The translations under genes were made by a program, and so were the position numbers. A stretch of DNA of 64,000 nucleotides from Pseudomonadota bacterium (GTDB lineage: Bacteria; Pseudomonadota; Gammaproteobacteria; Steroidobacterales; Steroidobacteraceae). How positions within the stretch are numbered: position 1 is the stretch's first letter; each line of letters opens with the position of its first letter. Under the pieces are notes generated by a model that did not search any database, was not told where the DNA came from, and was given only the letters and a program-made list of their open reading frames with translations. Shown here one piece after another: positions 56,608-63,412 of the stretch. The stretch spans positions 1-64,000 of the forward strand of contig JAJYLP010000002.1 of assembly GCA_021787615.1 (NCBI GenBank), written 5' to 3'.

Positions 56608-57463
56608 GCCGGCCGCAGCGCTCGCGGCGCTGCTGGCGCTCATGGCGCGCCTGCGCGACCCCGAGAGCGGCTGTCCCTGGGACCGGGCGCAGGATTTGCG
56701 CACCATCGCCCCGTACACCATCGAGGAGGCCTACGAGGTCCGCGACGCCATCGAGCGGGACGATGCGCCAAAGCTGCGCGAGGAGCTCGGCGATCTGCTC
56801 TTCCAGGTCGTCTTCCACGCGCGCATGGCCGAGGAGCGCGGCTGGTTTGATTTCGCCGACGTGGCGGCGGGAATTCACGCCAAGCTGGTGCGGCGCCACC
56901 CGCACGTGTTCGGCGCCGGCGCGCCGCGGGCCGAGGAGCCGCAGGGGGCCTCGGGGGGGCTTGCCCGCAATGAGTCCGGCACGCCCCTGAACGAGGCCGA
57001 GCAGTCCCTGCAGTGGGACGAGATCAAGGCGCGCGAGCGCGCCGCCTCGGGCGCCCCGGACCGCAGCACGCTCGCGGATGTGCCGCAGGGGCTGCCGGCG
57101 CTGCTGCGCGCGAGCAAGCTCGGCCGGCGCGCCGCGCGGGTGGGCTTTGACTGGCAGCGGCCCGAGGAGGTGCGCGCCAAGGTGCTCGAGGAGCTCGGCG
57201 AACTCGACGCGGCGCTCGCGGCGAGCGGCGGCGTGGCCGATGCGCATGGCGTCGAGGAGTTCGGCGATGTGCTCTTCGCGCTCGTGAACTGGAGCCGCCA
57301 CCTGGGGCTCGATGCCGAGGAGGCGCTGCGCCGCGCCAGCGACAAGTTCGAGCGGCGCTTCCGGCGCATGGAGCGGCTGGCCGGCGGGCGAGGACTGGCG
57401 CCCGCGGCGCTCGGCGCCGAGGCGTGGGATGCCCTGTGGCGCGAGGCCAAAGCGTCGGATTGA
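56594..57463 (+). CDS. mazG: Nucleoside triphosphate pyrophosphohydrolase MazG
   Basis: A 289-residue protein with two MazG domains. Each has the ExxE12-28ExxD metal pattern: TIEEAYEVRDAIERDD and REELGDLLFQVVFHAR in the first half, and EELGELDAAL then EEFGDVLFALVNWSRH in the second. LRDPESGCPWDRAQDLRTIA marks the family start. It hydrolyses NTPs to NMPs and may limit misincorporation or (p)ppGpp. It overlaps the CoA pyrophosphatase by 14 bp, so both nucleotide-sanitising genes are coupled. Confidence 0.92.
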   Translation: MDRPEPAAALAALLALMARLRDPESGCPWDRAQDLRTIAPYTIEEAYEVRDAIERDDAPKLREELGDLLFQVVFHARMAEERGWFDFADVAAGIHAKLVRRHPHVFGAGAPRAEEPQGASGGLARNESGTPLNEAEQSLQWDEIKARERAASGAPDRSTLADVPQGLPALLRASKLGRRAARVGFDWQRPEEVRAKVLEELGELDAALAASGGVADAHGVEEFGDVLFALVNWSRHLGLDAEEALRRASDKFERRFRRMERLAGGRGLAPAALGAEAWDALWREAKASD

Positions 57464-57572
57464 GGGCGCGCGCAGGCGCCTGCGGCGTATTCAGCGCCGA
57501 TTCACGGGTGGTAGTCTAGGGTGCCGGACGCCGGGTCAGCCCCCTCTTGGGCGGCCTCCGGCATCGGAACAG

Positions 57573-57890
57573 ATGCTCCAAGTGCGACCCTTCACACAAG
57601 CAAGCTTGCGCCTGGCGATCGTGACGGCAGCGGCGTTGATCGCGGCCGGGCCCTGGCCGGCTCGGGCGCAGACCGCCATGGCGCGGGCCGCACTCGCCGG
57701 CTCCATCACGCAGGTGCGCATCTCGATGGCTCAGGCCGTCCGGATGGTCGAGCAGCGCTTCAAGGCGCGCGTGGTGCGGGCCGAGACGCGCAAGGACGGC
57801 GGCCGCACGGTGTACGTGCTGCGGCTGCTCGACAAGTCCGGCCGGGTGTTCACCGTGCGGGTCGACGCTGCGAGCGGCCAGATCCTCTGA
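57573..57890 (+). CDS. Exported PepSY-domain protein
   Basis: A 105-residue protein with a signal peptide (about 1-32, hydrophobic core LAIVTAAALIAAG, cleavage after ARA) and a PepSY domain (about 45-105; MAQAVRMVEQRFKARVVRAE and GRTVYVLRLLDKSGRVFTVR). ATG 57573 gives the signal; the upstream frame runs inside mazG. It is 19 bp before a PhoP-like response regulator, and PepSY proteins of this kind are often encoded beside PhoP/PhoQ-like kinases in proteobacteria. It may be a periplasmic modulator of that system, which is inference. Confidence 0.82.
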   Translation: MLQVRPFTQASLRLAIVTAAALIAAGPWPARAQTAMARAALAGSITQVRISMAQAVRMVEQRFKARVVRAETRKDGGRTVYVLRLLDKSGRVFTVRVDAASGQIL

Positions 57891-57909
57891 AGCTGCCTCG
57901 GGAGGGGCC

Positions 57910-58596
57910 ATGCGGGCATTGGTGGTTGAAGATGAGACGGCGCTGCGCGAGAGCCTGAAGGCTCAGCTTGCCGGGACCGGCTTCACCGTCGATGTGGCCC
58001 AGGATGGCCAGGAGGGACTCTTTGCGGGCCTGGAATACCCGCTCGATGTGGCGGTGATCGACCTCGGCCTGCCGAAGGTCTCGGGGCTGGAGGTGATCCG
58101 CAAGTTGCGCGCCGCGGGCAAGACCTATCCGATCCTCATCCTCACCGCGCGCGACAACTGGCAGGACAAGGTCGAGGGCCTGCAGGCCGGCGCCGACGAT
58201 TACGTCTCCAAGCCTTTTCACTTCGAGGAGCTGCTCGCGCGATTGCAGGCGCTGCTGCGCCGCGCCGGCGGCTGGGCGAGCCCGCAGCTCAAGTGCGGCC
58301 CCGTCACCCTCGACACGCGCGCCCAGACCGTCGCCGTCGATGGAGCGCTCGTGGAGCTCACCACCTTCGAGTACCGCATACTCGAGCACCTGATGCTGCG
58401 GGCGGGCGAGGTGATCTCCAAGGCCGAACTCACCGAGCGGCTCTACGATCAGGACTTCGAGCGCGACAGCAACGTCATCGAAGTGCTGGTCGGCCGGCTG
58501 CGCCGCAAGCTCGATCCGCACGATCGGCTGAAGCCCATCGAGACGCTGCGCGGCCGCGGCTACCGCTTCTCGCTGGCGCGTCAGGCGACTGTCTAG
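57910..58596 (+). CDS. OmpR/PhoB-family response regulator, PhoP-like
   Basis: This 228-residue regulator has a receiver domain (about 1-120) with D51 (VIDLGLP) as phosphorylation site, E7/D8 in VVEDE and Lys in YVSKPF at about 104. A winged-helix DNA-binding domain follows (about 130-225, VELTTFEYRILEHLMLRAG, and NVIEVLVGRLRRKLD). The family is PhoP/QseB. It is followed by its kinase gene after 20 bp and preceded by the PepSY protein gene. Signal unknown; low Mg2+ or antimicrobial peptides would be guesses from the closest named members. Confidence 0.92.
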   Translation: MRALVVEDETALRESLKAQLAGTGFTVDVAQDGQEGLFAGLEYPLDVAVIDLGLPKVSGLEVIRKLRAAGKTYPILILTARDNWQDKVEGLQAGADDYVSKPFHFEELLARLQALLRRAGGWASPQLKCGPVTLDTRAQTVAVDGALVELTTFEYRILEHLMLRAGEVISKAELTERLYDQDFERDSNVIEVLVGRLRRKLDPHDRLKPIETLRGRGYRFSLARQATV

Positions 58597-58616
58597 GCGC
58601 TGCGCGCGGGGACGGC

Positions 58617-59963
58617 GTGCACTCACTCAGTCAACGACTGCTGTTGTCTGTGGCGGTGCCCCTGGTGCTGTTCTTTGGCTTCATGACGTGGGTGCTCGAT
58701 CACGGCTTTCGCACCCTCTCGGATCACTCGCTGCACGAGCTGCTCGACTCGCAGATCATCGCGCTCATCGCCGCCGCCGAGCACGAGAAGGGCGGCGGGT
58801 ATGGCGCGCCGCTGACGGCCCTCGACTCGCGCTTCGCGACGCCGCGCTCGGGCTTGTACGCCGAGATCCGCTCGGCCCATCATCAGTGGCGCTCGCCCTC
58901 GACGGTCGGCGCGCAGGTCGATTTCGGGCCGCTGCTCACGCAGGGCGCGCGCACCTTCTTCCACACGATGGCCGGGCACAGCCGCCTCGCCGTCGAGAGC
59001 CGCGGCGTGGCGTTCGCCGATAACCCCGGCGATGGGGGCCCAGTGACCTTCAGCGTCGCGGTGAGCCTGACGCCCTACGAGGAGCAGCTGTGGGAATTCC
59101 GCCGCCGCATGGTGCTGTGGTTCAGCGCCCTGATGCTGCTGCTGCTGGCGACGCTCGCGGTGCTGCTGCGCGCGGTGCTCGCCCCGGTGCGCCGGCTGGA
59201 GCGCGAGATCCACGAGGTCGAGGAGGGCCGCAGCGAGGTGCTCGGCGCCGGTTATCCGCGCGAGCTGAAGGGCGTGGCGCGCCATCTCAATGCGCTGCTC
59301 ATCGGCGAGCGCAAGCGGGTCGCGCGCTACCGCGACACCCTCGGCAATCTCGCGCACAGCCTGAAGACGCCGCTCGCCGTGATGCGCACGGCGCTGCCGG
59401 CCGCGGGCGATGCGCCGAGCGCGATCGGCCAGGAAATCGACCGCATGAGCGACATCATCGAGCATCAGCTGAAGCGTGCGGCCGCCTCGGGCGGGGCGCT
59501 GCTCGGACAGGCGCCCGTTGCGGTGGCGCCGGTGGCGGCCGATCTGCGCGCGGCGCTGCTGAAGGTCTATCGCCACAAGGATCTCTCGCTCGAGCTTGCC
59601 GTCCAGCCCGATAGTCAGTTCGTGGGCGACCGCGCCGACCTGATGGAGATGCTCGGCAACCTCCTGGAGAACGCGTGCAAGTGGTGCCATCAGCGTGTGC
59701 GAATGACCGTGACGGTCGATCCCGATGCGGCCGTTCACGAGAACATGACAGTGACCGTGGAGGATGACGGCCCGGGGATCTCCGAGGAGAACCGCGCACG
59801 CGTGCTCGAGCGCGGTGTGAGGACCGATGAGACCGTCCCCGGTCACGGGCTGGGGCTCGCCATGGTGCGCGAGACGGTCGAGCTCTACGGCGGCCGCCTC
59901 GCGGTGGACACCTCGCCGCTCGGCGGGGCGCGCTTCGAGGTGCGCCTGCCGGGCCGAACTTAA
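58617..59963 (+). CDS. Sensor histidine kinase, PhoQ-like
   Basis: A 448-residue inner-membrane kinase. Two membrane helices (about 7-26 and 168-188) flank a periplasmic sensor domain (about 30-165) with EHEKGGGYGAPLTALDSRF. A HAMP-like linker follows (VLAPVRRLEREIHEVEEGRS). The dimerisation helix carries H247 in NLAHSLKTPLAVM. The ATPase domain has N-box ENACKWC, G1 VEDDGPGISEENRARVLERG, and GHGLGLAMVRETVELYGG. GTG 58617 gives the family N-terminus with GGGGAC upstream; no ATG is available. Pairs with the response regulator. Confidence 0.9.
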   Translation: MHSLSQRLLLSVAVPLVLFFGFMTWVLDHGFRTLSDHSLHELLDSQIIALIAAAEHEKGGGYGAPLTALDSRFATPRSGLYAEIRSAHHQWRSPSTVGAQVDFGPLLTQGARTFFHTMAGHSRLAVESRGVAFADNPGDGGPVTFSVAVSLTPYEEQLWEFRRRMVLWFSALMLLLLATLAVLLRAVLAPVRRLEREIHEVEEGRSEVLGAGYPRELKGVARHLNALLIGERKRVARYRDTLGNLAHSLKTPLAVMRTALPAAGDAPSAIGQEIDRMSDIIEHQLKRAAASGGALLGQAPVAVAPVAADLRAALLKVYRHKDLSLELAVQPDSQFVGDRADLMEMLGNLLENACKWCHQRVRMTVTVDPDAAVHENMTVTVEDDGPGISEENRARVLERGVRTDETVPGHGLGLAMVRETVELYGGRLAVDTSPLGGARFEVRLPGRT

Positions 59964-59990
59964 GTCCAGCTCCGGCTCCGGTGCGCGCGG

Positions 59991-60006
59991 TCCGCATAAC
60001 TGCGGA
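59991..60006 (+). terminator. Short hairpin after the two-component genes
   Basis: TCCGCA (59991-59996) pairs with TGCGGA (60001-60006) over the loop TAAC, followed by TTGCC. Possibly a weak terminator between the kinase gene and the P-type ATPase, or a processing site. Confidence 0.35.
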
Positions 60007-60072
60007 TTGCCGGGGGTGCAGCGGATCGGCGAAGTTGTTCCTCTTGCGGCTCAGCCCGCGTCGCGGACGGCT

Positions 60073-60106
60073 CTCCTCTGCGCGTACGCGGCGTCGCGCA
60101 GAGGAG
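60073..60106 (+). promoter_or_regulatory. Hairpin hiding the Shine-Dalgarno of the P-type ATPase
   Basis: CTCCTCTGCGCG (60073-60084) and CGCGCAGAGGAG (60095-60106) are perfectly complementary over a 10-base spacer (which itself could add a small pairing). The right arm ends with GAGGAG (60101-60106), the Shine-Dalgarno six bases before ATG 60112. In the folded mRNA the ribosome site would be fully base-paired. This looks like a translational switch, such as a thermometer, pH- or ion-sensitive element, or an occlusion relieved by coupling or a factor. The 148-bp leader (59964-60111) contains no obvious leader peptide or known riboswitch. Confidence 0.7.
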
Positions 60107-60111
60107 CGCAC

Positions 60112-62589
60112 ATGAATAATAAGTCGACCGAGACAGGTCCCGCGGCGGTCACCGCTGCGACGCTCGCGGTCTCAACTGAGGGGCTCAGCGAAGCGGAGGC
60201 GAGGCGCCGGCTGGATCAGTACGGGGAGAACGTCCTGCGCGAGCACCACGTCGGCATCGCACAGCGCATTCTCGGGTTCTTCTGGGGGCCGATTCCCTGG
60301 ATGATCGAGGCGGCCGCGATCCTCTCGGCGGTGCTCGGCCATTGGGATGACCTCACGGTCATCGCGCTGATGCTCTTCATCAACGCCGGCGTCGGCTTCT
60401 GGCAGGAATACAAGGCCGATACGGCCATCGAGGCGCTCAAGCAGCGCCTGGCGCTCTCGGCGCACGTCAGACGCGACGGCGTGTGGCGCGAGATCGCAGC
60501 GCGGCTGCTGGTGCCGGGTGACCTGATCGCCATCCAGATCGGCAACATCGTGCCGGCCGATGCCACGTTGGCGGACGGGGAGTACCTGAGCGTAGATCAA
60601 TCCGCGCTCACCGGGGAGTCACTGCCGGTCGACAAGAAACGCGGCGACACGGCCTATTCGGGCTCGATCGTGCGCCAGGGCGGGATGAACGCGGTGGTGA
60701 GCGCCACCGGCATGAACACCTACTTCGGGCGCACGGCGCAGCTCGTGGAGCAGGCCGGGGCCGTCTCGCACTTCCAGCGTGCGGTGCTGCGCATCGGCAA
60801 CTTCCTGATTCTCACCACCGCCGCTCTGGTGCTGGTCATCGTGATCGCGGGGCTGTTTCAGCACAACGCGCTGCTCGAGATGGTGCAGTTCGCGCTCATT
60901 CTGGCAGTCGCCTCCATCCCGGTGGCGCTGCCAGCGGTGCTCTCGGTCACCCTTGCGGTCGGGGCCGAGCGCCTGGCGCGCCTGAAGGCCATCGTCTCGC
61001 GCCTGGTGTCGATCGAGGAGCTGGCTGGCATGAATACGCTGTGCTCGGACAAGACGGGCACGCTGACTCGCAACGAGCTGACGCTCGGTGCCACGCTGCC
61101 GGCTCCCGGCGTCGAGACAACGCAGCTGCTGACGGCCGCGGCGCTCGCTTCGCGCCGAGAGGCGCCGGATGCAATCGACAGTGCAATCCTCGCCGCAGCC
61201 CCGCCGGCGAAGCAGCTCGAGGACTACCGGTTGAAGACCTTCCGGCCGTTCGACCCGGTGGTCAAGCGCACCGAGGCGGAGCTTGAGCACCTCGGCAAGG
61301 TGCTCAAGGTGACCAAAGGCGCCCCGCAGGTGATCGTCGAGCTGTGCCAGCCGGATGCGCAGCAGCGCGCCGCGGTCCTCGCGCAGGTGGATCAGGCCGC
61401 CGCCAAGGGTTACCGGACGCTCGCGGTGGCGCGCGACGAGGGCGCCGGCTGGCGCTATCTCGGCCTGCTGCCGCTGTTCGACCCGCCTCGAGAGGACAGC
61501 GCCGAGACCATTCGAGCGACGCGCGCGATGGGCATCGACATCAAGATGGTCACTGGCGATCACGAGGCGATCGCCCGGCAGATTGCCGCCGAGCTCGATC
61601 TCGGGCGCAACATCGTCGTGGCGGATGCAGTATTCGGCAAGCAGTCCCCGCCGCAGGCGCTCAAGCAGGTGCTCACGGCCGACGGGTTCGCGCGGGTGTT
61701 CCCCGAACACAAATTCCAGATTGTCAAGGCACTGCAGTCGAGCGGGCGGATCGTCGGCATGACCGGCGATGGCGTCAACGACGCACCGGCACTAAAGCAG
61801 GCCGACGTCGGCATCGCGGTGAGCGGTGCCACGGATGCCGCGCGCGCCGCCGCGGCGCTCATCCTGACAGCACCGGGCCTCTCGGTCATCACGACCGCAA
61901 TCCAGGAGGCGCGCCGGATATTCGAACGGATGACGAGCTACGGGACGTACCGCATCGCCGAGACGATCCGTCTCATTCTGTTCATGACGGCGACGATCCT
62001 GATCTACAACTTCTATCCGGTCACCACGCTCATGGTGGTGCTGCTCGCCCTGCTCAATGACATTCCGATCATGATGATCGCCTACGACAATGCGCCCGTC
62101 GCGCCCGCTCCGGTGCGCTGGGACATGCCGCGGGTGCTCACGGTCGCATCGTCCCTTGGGCTCTACGGCGTGTTCGAGAGCTTCGTGCTGTACTGGATCG
62201 CCAGGGACCTGTTGCATCTTCCCGTGCCGGTGCTGCAGGCCGTGATCTTCCTGAAGCTCCTCGTGTCGGGTCACATGACCATCTATCTGAGCCGCAACCG
62301 GGGCTGGGCCTGGCAACGGCCATGGCCGCGGTGGCTGCTGGTGGTGCCGTGCGAGTTGACTCAGCTGCTCGGCACCCTGATCGTGGTGTACGGTGTGGCC
62401 ATGGCGCCCATCGGCTGGGGGCTCGCGCTGCTCGTGTGGGCCTACACGATCGCGTCCTTCTTCGTCGCGAACGCCGTCAAGATCGCCGCTCACGGCCTGA
62501 TCGATCACCGGATGGGCTCGCATGCGCGCCATTTGCGACGCGTCGAGGGCGCCCTCGGCTGCGGGCCGCAGCCACTCGTGCATCGCTAG
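60112..62589 (+). CDS. Plasma-membrane-type P3A P-type ATPase (proton-exporting)
   Basis: An 825-residue pump. Order: actuator domain with TGES (LTGESLPVDKKRGD, about 165-178), phosphorylation aspartate D313 in CSDKTGTLTRNELT, TGDH and the hinge motif MTGDGVNDAPALKQADVGIAV (about 549-569). About ten membrane helices complete it (for example FFWGPIPWMIEAAAILSAVL about 50-70 and the PVALPAVLSVTLAV about 275-288). Such P3A enzymes pump H+ out of the cytoplasm; bacterial homologues are known, and related Mg2+ importers are alternatives. The protein lacks the autoinhibitory C-terminal extension of plant and fungal H+-ATPases. Expression is probably gated by the hairpin upstream. Confidence 0.88.
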   Translation: MNNKSTETGPAAVTAATLAVSTEGLSEAEARRRLDQYGENVLREHHVGIAQRILGFFWGPIPWMIEAAAILSAVLGHWDDLTVIALMLFINAGVGFWQEYKADTAIEALKQRLALSAHVRRDGVWREIAARLLVPGDLIAIQIGNIVPADATLADGEYLSVDQSALTGESLPVDKKRGDTAYSGSIVRQGGMNAVVSATGMNTYFGRTAQLVEQAGAVSHFQRAVLRIGNFLILTTAALVLVIVIAGLFQHNALLEMVQFALILAVASIPVALPAVLSVTLAVGAERLARLKAIVSRLVSIEELAGMNTLCSDKTGTLTRNELTLGATLPAPGVETTQLLTAAALASRREAPDAIDSAILAAAPPAKQLEDYRLKTFRPFDPVVKRTEAELEHLGKVLKVTKGAPQVIVELCQPDAQQRAAVLAQVDQAAAKGYRTLAVARDEGAGWRYLGLLPLFDPPREDSAETIRATRAMGIDIKMVTGDHEAIARQIAAELDLGRNIVVADAVFGKQSPPQALKQVLTADGFARVFPEHKFQIVKALQSSGRIVGMTGDGVNDAPALKQADVGIAVSGATDAARAAAALILTAPGLSVITTAIQEARRIFERMTSYGTYRIAETIRLILFMTATILIYNFYPVTTLMVVLLALLNDIPIMMIAYDNAPVAPAPVRWDMPRVLTVASSLGLYGVFESFVLYWIARDLLHLPVPVLQAVIFLKLLVSGHMTIYLSRNRGWAWQRPWPRWLLVVPCELTQLLGTLIVVYGVAMAPIGWGLALLVWAYTIASFFVANAVKIAAHGLIDHRMGSHARHLRRVEGALGCGPQPLVHR

Positions 62590-62620
62590 GCGGCCGAGGA
62601 TCGCTGCATCGCTGCGACGA

Positions 62621-63412
62621 TCACTGGGGCGGCTGGCGGGGGCGGATGCGCGAGTGGGCGAATCCGGGCGCTTCGCGCGGCTCGGGCCGCAGGCGCCGCT
62701 TGAGGATGGCGAGCGCATCCTCCGGCCGCTCGGCGAATTCGAACAGCTTGAGGTCCTCCCGGTCGATCACGCCGTGGCGTGCGAGCGCCTCGAAGTCGAT
62801 GATCTCGTTCCAGTACTGCGGCCCGTAGAGGATCACCGGAATGTCCCGCGCGAGCTTTCGGGTCTGCGCCAGTGTGAGGATCTCGGTGAGCTCATCGAGC
62901 GTGCCGAGCCCGCCGGGGAAGGCGATGAGCGCGCGCGCCAGGTGCGCAAACCACAGTTTGCGCATGAAGAAGTAGTGGAACTCGAACGTCAGCTCGCTCG
63001 AGAGGTAGGGGTTGGGGTGCTGTTCGTGCGGCAGGCTGATGTTGAGCCCGACCGTCTTGCCGCCGGCCTCCGCGGCGCCGCGGTTGGCCGCTTCCATGAT
63101 GCCGCCGCCGCCGCCCGAGCAGATCACGTAGCGATGCGTGTGCTCCGGAAGCGAGGCCGACCAGCGCGTGATCAGGCCGGCGAGCTCGCGCGCGTGCTCA
63201 TAGTAGCGGCCGAGCGGCCCCTCGGGGCGCAGCCGGGCGGAGCCGAAGAAGACGATGGTGGCGTGCACGCCGGCGCGCCTGAAGCGCTCGAGCGGCTCGA
63301 GATACTCGGCGAGAATGCGCAGCGGTCGCGCCGCATCACTCTCGAGGAAGCCGGGCTCCTCGTAGGCGAGCTGCGGGCCTGTCCGGTTCTCGGTTGACGG
63401 GTTCTTGTCCAT
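62621..63412 (-). CDS. LOG-family protein (cytokinin-type nucleoside 5'-monophosphate phosphoribohydrolase)
   Basis: A 263-residue Rossmann-fold protein. The ligand-binding motif GGGGGIMEAANRGAAEAGGK (about 101-120) and the catalytic PGGLGTLDELTEILTLAQ (about 169-186) are the LOG family hallmarks. The family cuts nucleoside monophosphates such as AMP to base and ribose 5-phosphate. The N-terminus STENRTGPQLAYEEPGFLES is longer than in short LOG proteins and resembles the larger TIGR00730-type members. Its ATG overlaps the RNB gene stop by one base. The physiological role in bacteria is not settled. Confidence 0.88.
   Translation of the reverse strand: MDKNPSTENRTGPQLAYEEPGFLESDAARPLRILAEYLEPLERFRRAGVHATIVFFGSARLRPEGPLGRYYEHARELAGLITRWSASLPEHTHRYVICSGGGGGIMEAANRGAAEAGGKTVGLNISLPHEQHPNPYLSSELTFEFHYFFMRKLWFAHLARALIAFPGGLGTLDELTEILTLAQTRKLARDIPVILYGPQYWNEIIDFEALARHGVIDREDLKLFEFAERPEDALAILKRRLRPEPREAPGFAHSRIRPRQPPQ

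Follow-up and report, generated by a model that had tools for sequence, protein, structure and literature searches.

A perfect hairpin over the ribosome site of a proton-efflux ATPase gene is probably a local translational brake and not a conserved sensor of temperature or acidity

Does a hairpin that buries the Shine–Dalgarno (SD) sequence of a gene mark its translation as switched by a signal? The question arises in the window analysed here, a 64,000-nucleotide stretch of a Steroidobacteraceae genome, for which an earlier note had described a perfect 12-bp hairpin ahead of a proton-pump P-type ATPase gene and proposed that translation of the pump is conditional, with pH or temperature as a natural signal. 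The identity of the predicted pump is well supported, since it matches the type IIIA family TIGR01647 (NCBIfam) over its full length and above the curated cut-off (Table 1). Its start codon is credible, since close orthologues, once aligned, begin at ATG 60112 or directly beside it. The pump gene follows genes for a response regulator and a sensor kinase, with 148 bases between the end of the kinase gene (59963) and the pump ATG. When the 58 genus genomes were searched with the kinase sequence (58638-59960), 51 gave a match (E up to 1e-100). Ahead of the PepSY–regulator–kinase genes, at 57490-57517, lies a conserved TTCAGCGCCGATTCAC, a direct repeat with an 11-base period that we take to be PhoP-box-like; TTCAGCGCCGATTCAC followed by six bases and TAGTCT is common to the four genomes aligned.

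Table 1. Features of the pump locus, in window coordinates
Feature	Position	Strand	Basis
OmpR/PhoP-type response regulator	57910..58596	+	sequence searches
PhoQ-like sensor kinase	58617..59963	+	GTG 58617 start inferred by eye
Palindrome TCCGCA-TAAC-TGCGGA	59991..60006	+	leader alignment, pattern search
Inferred promoter: -35-like TTGCCG, 17 bases, -10-like CGAAGT	60007-60012, 60030-60035	+	by eye, seven leaders
TTGCGG	60044..60049	+	67-69 bases before the start codon in 6/7 leaders
Possible upstream ORF, 23 codons, TTG start, TGA overlapping the pump ATG	60044..60115	+	reading-frame inspection
Left (5′) arm CTCCTCTGCGCG	60073..60084	+	sequence; complements the SD arm
Loop, 10 bases	60085..60094	+	sequence; three more pairs predicted inside by folding
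Right (3′) arm CGCGCAGAGGAG, holding SD GAGGAG at 60101-60106	60095..60106	+	sequence, folding
Proton-efflux P-type ATPase, 825 aa	60112..62589	+	TIGR01647, 945.4 bits vs cut-off 615.5

We confirmed the hairpin as described: the two arms form 12 of 12 Watson–Crick pairs, with 22 bases between arm centres, and the right arm does contain GAGGAG. The spacing needs correction, as five bases rather than the six counted earlier separate GAGGAG from the ATG. An identical hairpin is present in G029, a separately assembled genome, which speaks against an assembly error in the window. A search of the whole 3.73 Mb genome for the exact arm-gap-arm pattern gave this one copy, and on this ground a repeat element was dropped as a candidate. 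A scan of 59900-60200 found no intrinsic terminator. Folding predictions back the occlusion of the SD. All 12 pairs were predicted at a probability of at least 0.99 for transcripts starting at 59964, 60000, 60042 or 60060, and no competing fold was seen in the equilibrium ensemble of these four transcripts. The lowest pair probability was 0.94 for a transcript from 60073 and 0.43 (mean 0.95) for one from 59827. Before the 3′ arm is completed, predicted folding intermediates pair the left arm elsewhere.

How unusual such a stem is depends on what it is compared with. We drew the inverted-repeat and start backgrounds from 389,911 of the genome's 3,734,033 bases. Perfect inverted repeats of at least 12 bp with a loop of 3-30 were found 17 times in these 389,911 bases, five of them inside the window, against a first-order Markov expectation of 4.0 on average (24 runs, range 0-7). 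Inverted repeats of this length as such are not uncommon here; one sitting on an SD is rare. We scored 606 candidate starts, each with an SD and 150 open codons (a heuristic set that includes misplaced starts), and a perfect stem of at least 10 bp over the SD was seen at one, namely the pump hairpin. The predicted fold of positions -45 to -1 scored -30.7, compared with -17.7 ± 2.5 for shuffled sequences (z = -5.1; none of 300 as low). Positions -60 to -1 were less extreme (z = -2.88; 3 of 300 as low), and 60063-60140 gave z = -3.50 (1 of 200 as low). The longer segment that the earlier note had singled out for folding, 59964-60140, gave z = -2.35 (2 of 200 as low), with the SD arm paired. Opening positions -16 to +4 was predicted to cost 19.0 kcal/mol, compared with 11.7 ± 3.8 kcal/mol for 137 SD-bearing starts, a rough heuristic background in which some starts are surely misplaced; six of the 137 reach 19.0.

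We compared the leader with those of pump orthologues. Orthologues of about 79% identity or higher are present in nine of the 58 genus genomes: G000 (the window's genome), G018, G019, G025, G026, G027, G029, G033 and G046, the last cut by a contig end with residues 13-422 matched. They provide seven distinct leaders, G018 and G029 being near-identical to the window and not counted as independent. Among these seven, the hairpin is present in G000 and G027 only. Strong DNA matches to 60040-60115 in the 58 genomes came, among the matches listed, from one locus in G000, G018, G029 and G027, with G000, G018 and G029 also giving an inverted self-match; beyond these four, the matches listed are weak and short (E ≥ 0.002). 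The hairpin-bearing G018 sequence (L004, G018:C130) is a 3.4 kb contig with a near-identical pump and the kinase end. Since G018 has its own sensor-kinase copy (83%) on another contig, mis-binning of the 3.4 kb contig is possible. At the end of one G029 contig (L121, G029:C152), TTG stands in place of the window pump's ATG, probably a contig-end error; G029:C217 has ATG.

G027 is the nearest relative (92% protein identity) and keeps 10 of the 12 pairs. Its arms differ by six substitutions: one pair changed on both sides from U-A to C-G, one became U-G, two were broken, and the helix gained two pairs beside the loop. Random substitution retained as many pairs in 7.8% of trials, and both the SD pairing and the stability of G027 in 1.85%. 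The level of SD-upstream pairing in this leader was reached by 2%, 1% and 8% of background starts in three contexts. This retention hints at constraint between the two species, short of proof. At 9.8 kcal/mol, a value that about 64% of the 137 background starts reach, the predicted opening cost in this leader is ordinary, and its fold falls within the range of shuffled sequences (34 of 300 and 165 of 300 as low at two lengths), predictions that speak against a working brake in that species.

None of the other five leaders had a fold clearly better than shuffles (z from -1.61 to +1.42 at two lengths), the closest being G019 (20 of 300 as low at 45 bases). G019, G033 and G026 retain GAGGAG, with the complementary arm lost or largely rebuilt, a pattern that the earlier note had named as refuting its proposal. 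In G026, the right arm CGCGCAGAGGAG is wholly intact and the left side rebuilt; eight pairs with a bulge can form in a 50-base context, and in a 95-base context the left side is predicted to pair into the coding region, leaving the SD about 70% free. The SD-facing sequence of this leader (L009) can pair with nine bases inside the pump coding start, a possible two-state arrangement. Taken together, the six other leaders did not differ from the 137 starts in SD-upstream pairing (Mann–Whitney p = 0.39, 0.40 and 0.74 in three contexts). Comparison for covariation, which the earlier note had put forward as a check, likewise gave no support to its proposal: across the seven leaders, 64.3% of cells were paired compared with 64.6% in shuffled columns, and the covariation score was 0.198 compared with 0.211. 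Slid versions of the helix paired fewer cells (38-54%), as expected because the structure derives from one of the aligned sequences, and two of six exceeded it on covariation. The RNAalifold consensus of the seven leaders lacked the hairpin helix. On these pair counts and this consensus fold, we ruled out a conserved RNA structure. With the helix in one of the six other distinct leaders (G027) and pair counts equal to those of shuffled columns, conditional translation of the pump is not supported.

The search was also extended to the family. Among 217 genomes searched (E up to 1e-250), 15 had a match, those outside the genus being pumps of 52-74% identity. We collected 80 loci from the public genome collection and, for the ones ranking under the genus orthologues, inspected the sequence by eye as far as 62% identity. 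No comparable leader was found upstream of the pumps outside the genus at L149 and L150 or of the 53% relatives at L010 and L011.

A different element of the leader is conserved. The pattern CGCA-N4-TGCGGATTGC (59993-60010), which takes in most of a palindrome, stands before the pump in all nine close-orthologue genomes (seven distinct leaders). It occurs at 17 places in 15 of the 58 genomes overall, compared with one match for a reversed control pattern; a looser palindrome pattern occurs at 13 places in 8 of 11 genomes, several of them away from the pump. From this conserved block to the ATG the leaders diverge, with 8 of 77 columns invariant. Read by eye across the leaders, the palindrome is joined by a -35-like TTGCC(G/T) or TTGCAG, followed after 17-18 bases by CANNNT (five leaders) or CGARGT (two); a strict sigma-70 scan of 59900-60200 returned no site. 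From this promoter-like block we infer a transcript start near 60042, which would place the stem within the leader. Nothing in the data points to transcription beginning downstream of 60084, the other case that the earlier note had named as refuting its proposal. Given a kinase match in 51 of the 58 genomes and a close pump in nine, we associate the palindrome with the pump and not with the two-component system. When the neighbouring response regulator was considered as a possible regulator of the palindrome, the conserved block before the PepSY–regulator–kinase genes, with its direct repeat, proved to be a different one. Upstream of a 53%-identical pump in G045 (L011) stands TCCGTAGTTTTGCGTATTCCCG, then 17 bases and CATTCT, about 130-176 bases before the point aligned to the window pump's first codon. 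Its likeness to the palindrome and promoter-like sequence seen in close orthologues is of promoter-like character only. Judged from sequence conservation, the control shared among these pumps most likely acts on transcription, with the palindrome (59991-60006) next to the -35-like element as its site.

We therefore favour, with reasonable though limited confidence, a lineage-restricted and essentially static stem that lowers translation of the pump, or a chance GC-rich inverted repeat tolerated in this species, with the conserved control being transcriptional. The hairpin is probably a local translational brake rather than a conserved sensor of temperature or acidity. In a leader starting near 60042, the SD is predicted to be fully paired once the 3′ arm has been made. 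This should strongly reduce initiation at ATG 60112, and would do so at any ordinary temperature. The stem would then set a low level of translation in the window's species, and perhaps act more weakly in its nearest relative. The palindrome, whose conservation is observed, would carry the transcriptional control. Counting against this explanation, a stem so stable placed exactly on the SD is unlikely by chance, as the single case among the 606 candidate starts illustrates.

The two signals proposed in the earlier note fare differently. The window hairpin shares with ROSE-like RNA thermometers the pairing of the SD in the hairpin closest to the start codon. Those thermometers have imperfect helices that melt on a temperature upshift; when the SD of the Pseudomonas ibpA element was perfectly paired, the resulting variant was judged too stable for melting and reporter activity was lost (PMC3669281). 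The pump helix is by contrast a perfect, GC-rich 12-bp helix and is predicted not to melt: the open share of the SD rises from 0.1% at 37 °C through 0.5% (55 °C) and 1.5% (65 °C) to 12.6% at 85 °C. With 98.5% of the SD still paired at 65 °C in prediction, temperature as the signal is contradicted, and on this predicted melting a thermometer is ruled out for the window hairpin; we give the reading next to no probability. The ROSE-like U(U/C)GCU motif with imperfect SD pairing is absent, the pairing arm being CUCCUCUGCGCG and perfectly paired, and no Rfam thermometer matched up to E 5 in 57000-63000. A thermometer is least excluded in G027, whose weaker helix is predicted to open more with heat (3% at 37 °C, 8.9% at 45 °C and 23% at 55 °C). 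As for pH, the one pointer to it is the family of the pump. The pH-responsive alx leader of E. coli likewise belongs to a putative transporter gene and can adopt a translationally inactive fold; it depends on two pause sites together with an alternative, active fold under alkali (PMC3874183). The pump leader, unlike alx, shows a single fold at equilibrium, and for a proton-efflux pump the expected cue would be acid. A switch confined to the G000 and G027 lineage might nevertheless be opened by a small RNA, an RNA-binding protein, a helicase or alx-like cotranscriptional pausing. The strong occlusion in the window and the uncommon SD-upstream pairing in G027 argue for it. Against it stand the single, near-complete fold from all four transcript starts, the absence of the structure from five of six relatives and the ordinary opening cost in G027. 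The earlier note had recognised no known riboswitch family, and we agree: no Rfam family matched at gathering score in 57000-63000, and the two sub-threshold matches found there with E up to 5 lie away from the hairpin. We regard such a switch as improbable.

A brake might instead be opened by translation of the leader. MgtB is a P-type ATPase regulated by PhoP. In the Salmonella mgtCBRU operon, the ribosome site of mgtB, a Mg2+ transporter gene, lies in an inhibitory stem-loop and is freed by the upstream ORF mgtQ (PMC8092293). The pump leader has the same ingredients, namely a cation-transporter gene, a ribosome site in a stem-loop and a possible short ORF upstream, and ribosomes starting at TTG 60044 would traverse the stem and stop at TGA 60113-60115, coupling the pump to leader translation. 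The frame is open for its 23 codons and ends in ATGA, G019 likewise ends in GTGA, and the position of TTGCGG is widely held (Table 1). In mgtQ, however, alternative stems (1:2, 2:3 and 3:4) were tested by mutation (PMC8092293), and in the pump leader no competing stem was found; nor is the pump's upstream ORF conserved, and the pump belongs to the proton-efflux family. G027 also has the hairpin, yet its frame lacks a stop and reads into that of the pump. The stop lies elsewhere in G025 (+8) and G033 (-12), and G046 has none within 60 bases past the start, so that the overlap of stop and start is retained in one of the five other TTGCGG leaders. A TGA overlap, in one frame or another, comes with any ATGA or GTGA start, and the remaining frames are about as open (+1 for at least 18 codons in six of six leaders, +2 for at least 22 codons in five of six). 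TTG 60044 would also lie at or near the 5′ end of the transcript, with no room for an SD, and the ordinary opening cost in G027 tells against this mechanism as well. We find it distinctly unlikely. The inverted repeat might also act as DNA, as the operator of a dimeric regulator downstream of the promoter. The perfect dyad and its arm spacing fit such a role, and a place past the likely transcript start would suit a repressor; the pattern is, however, single-copy in the genome and, in contrast to the palindrome at 59991, is absent from five of six relatives, and we consider this reading very improbable. Doubtful too, at about the level of the lineage-confined switch, is a near-unmeltable stem that acts in this species, and perhaps in its sister, as a recent second lock over an older, conserved transcriptional control, and that is opened by ribosomes or by a trans-acting factor. 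Literature searches on SD hairpins at proton P-type ATPases, and on links between PhoP, PepSY, P-type ATPases and acid, found nothing, although the print record may still hold some cases of either.

As it stands, the static, lineage-restricted stem is mostly a matter for caution: this is a perfect ribosome-site hairpin, in a genome of 68% G+C, that is missing from five of six other leaders, and a hairpin covering an SD should not be called a sensor without comparison among relatives. If the stem is functional, it would show how, among only a few species, an SD-occluding structure can come to cover a gene already controlled at its promoter, and would raise the question of how such a gene gets translated at all. 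The better lead on control of the pump is the upstream palindrome, present in every one of the close-orthologue genomes.
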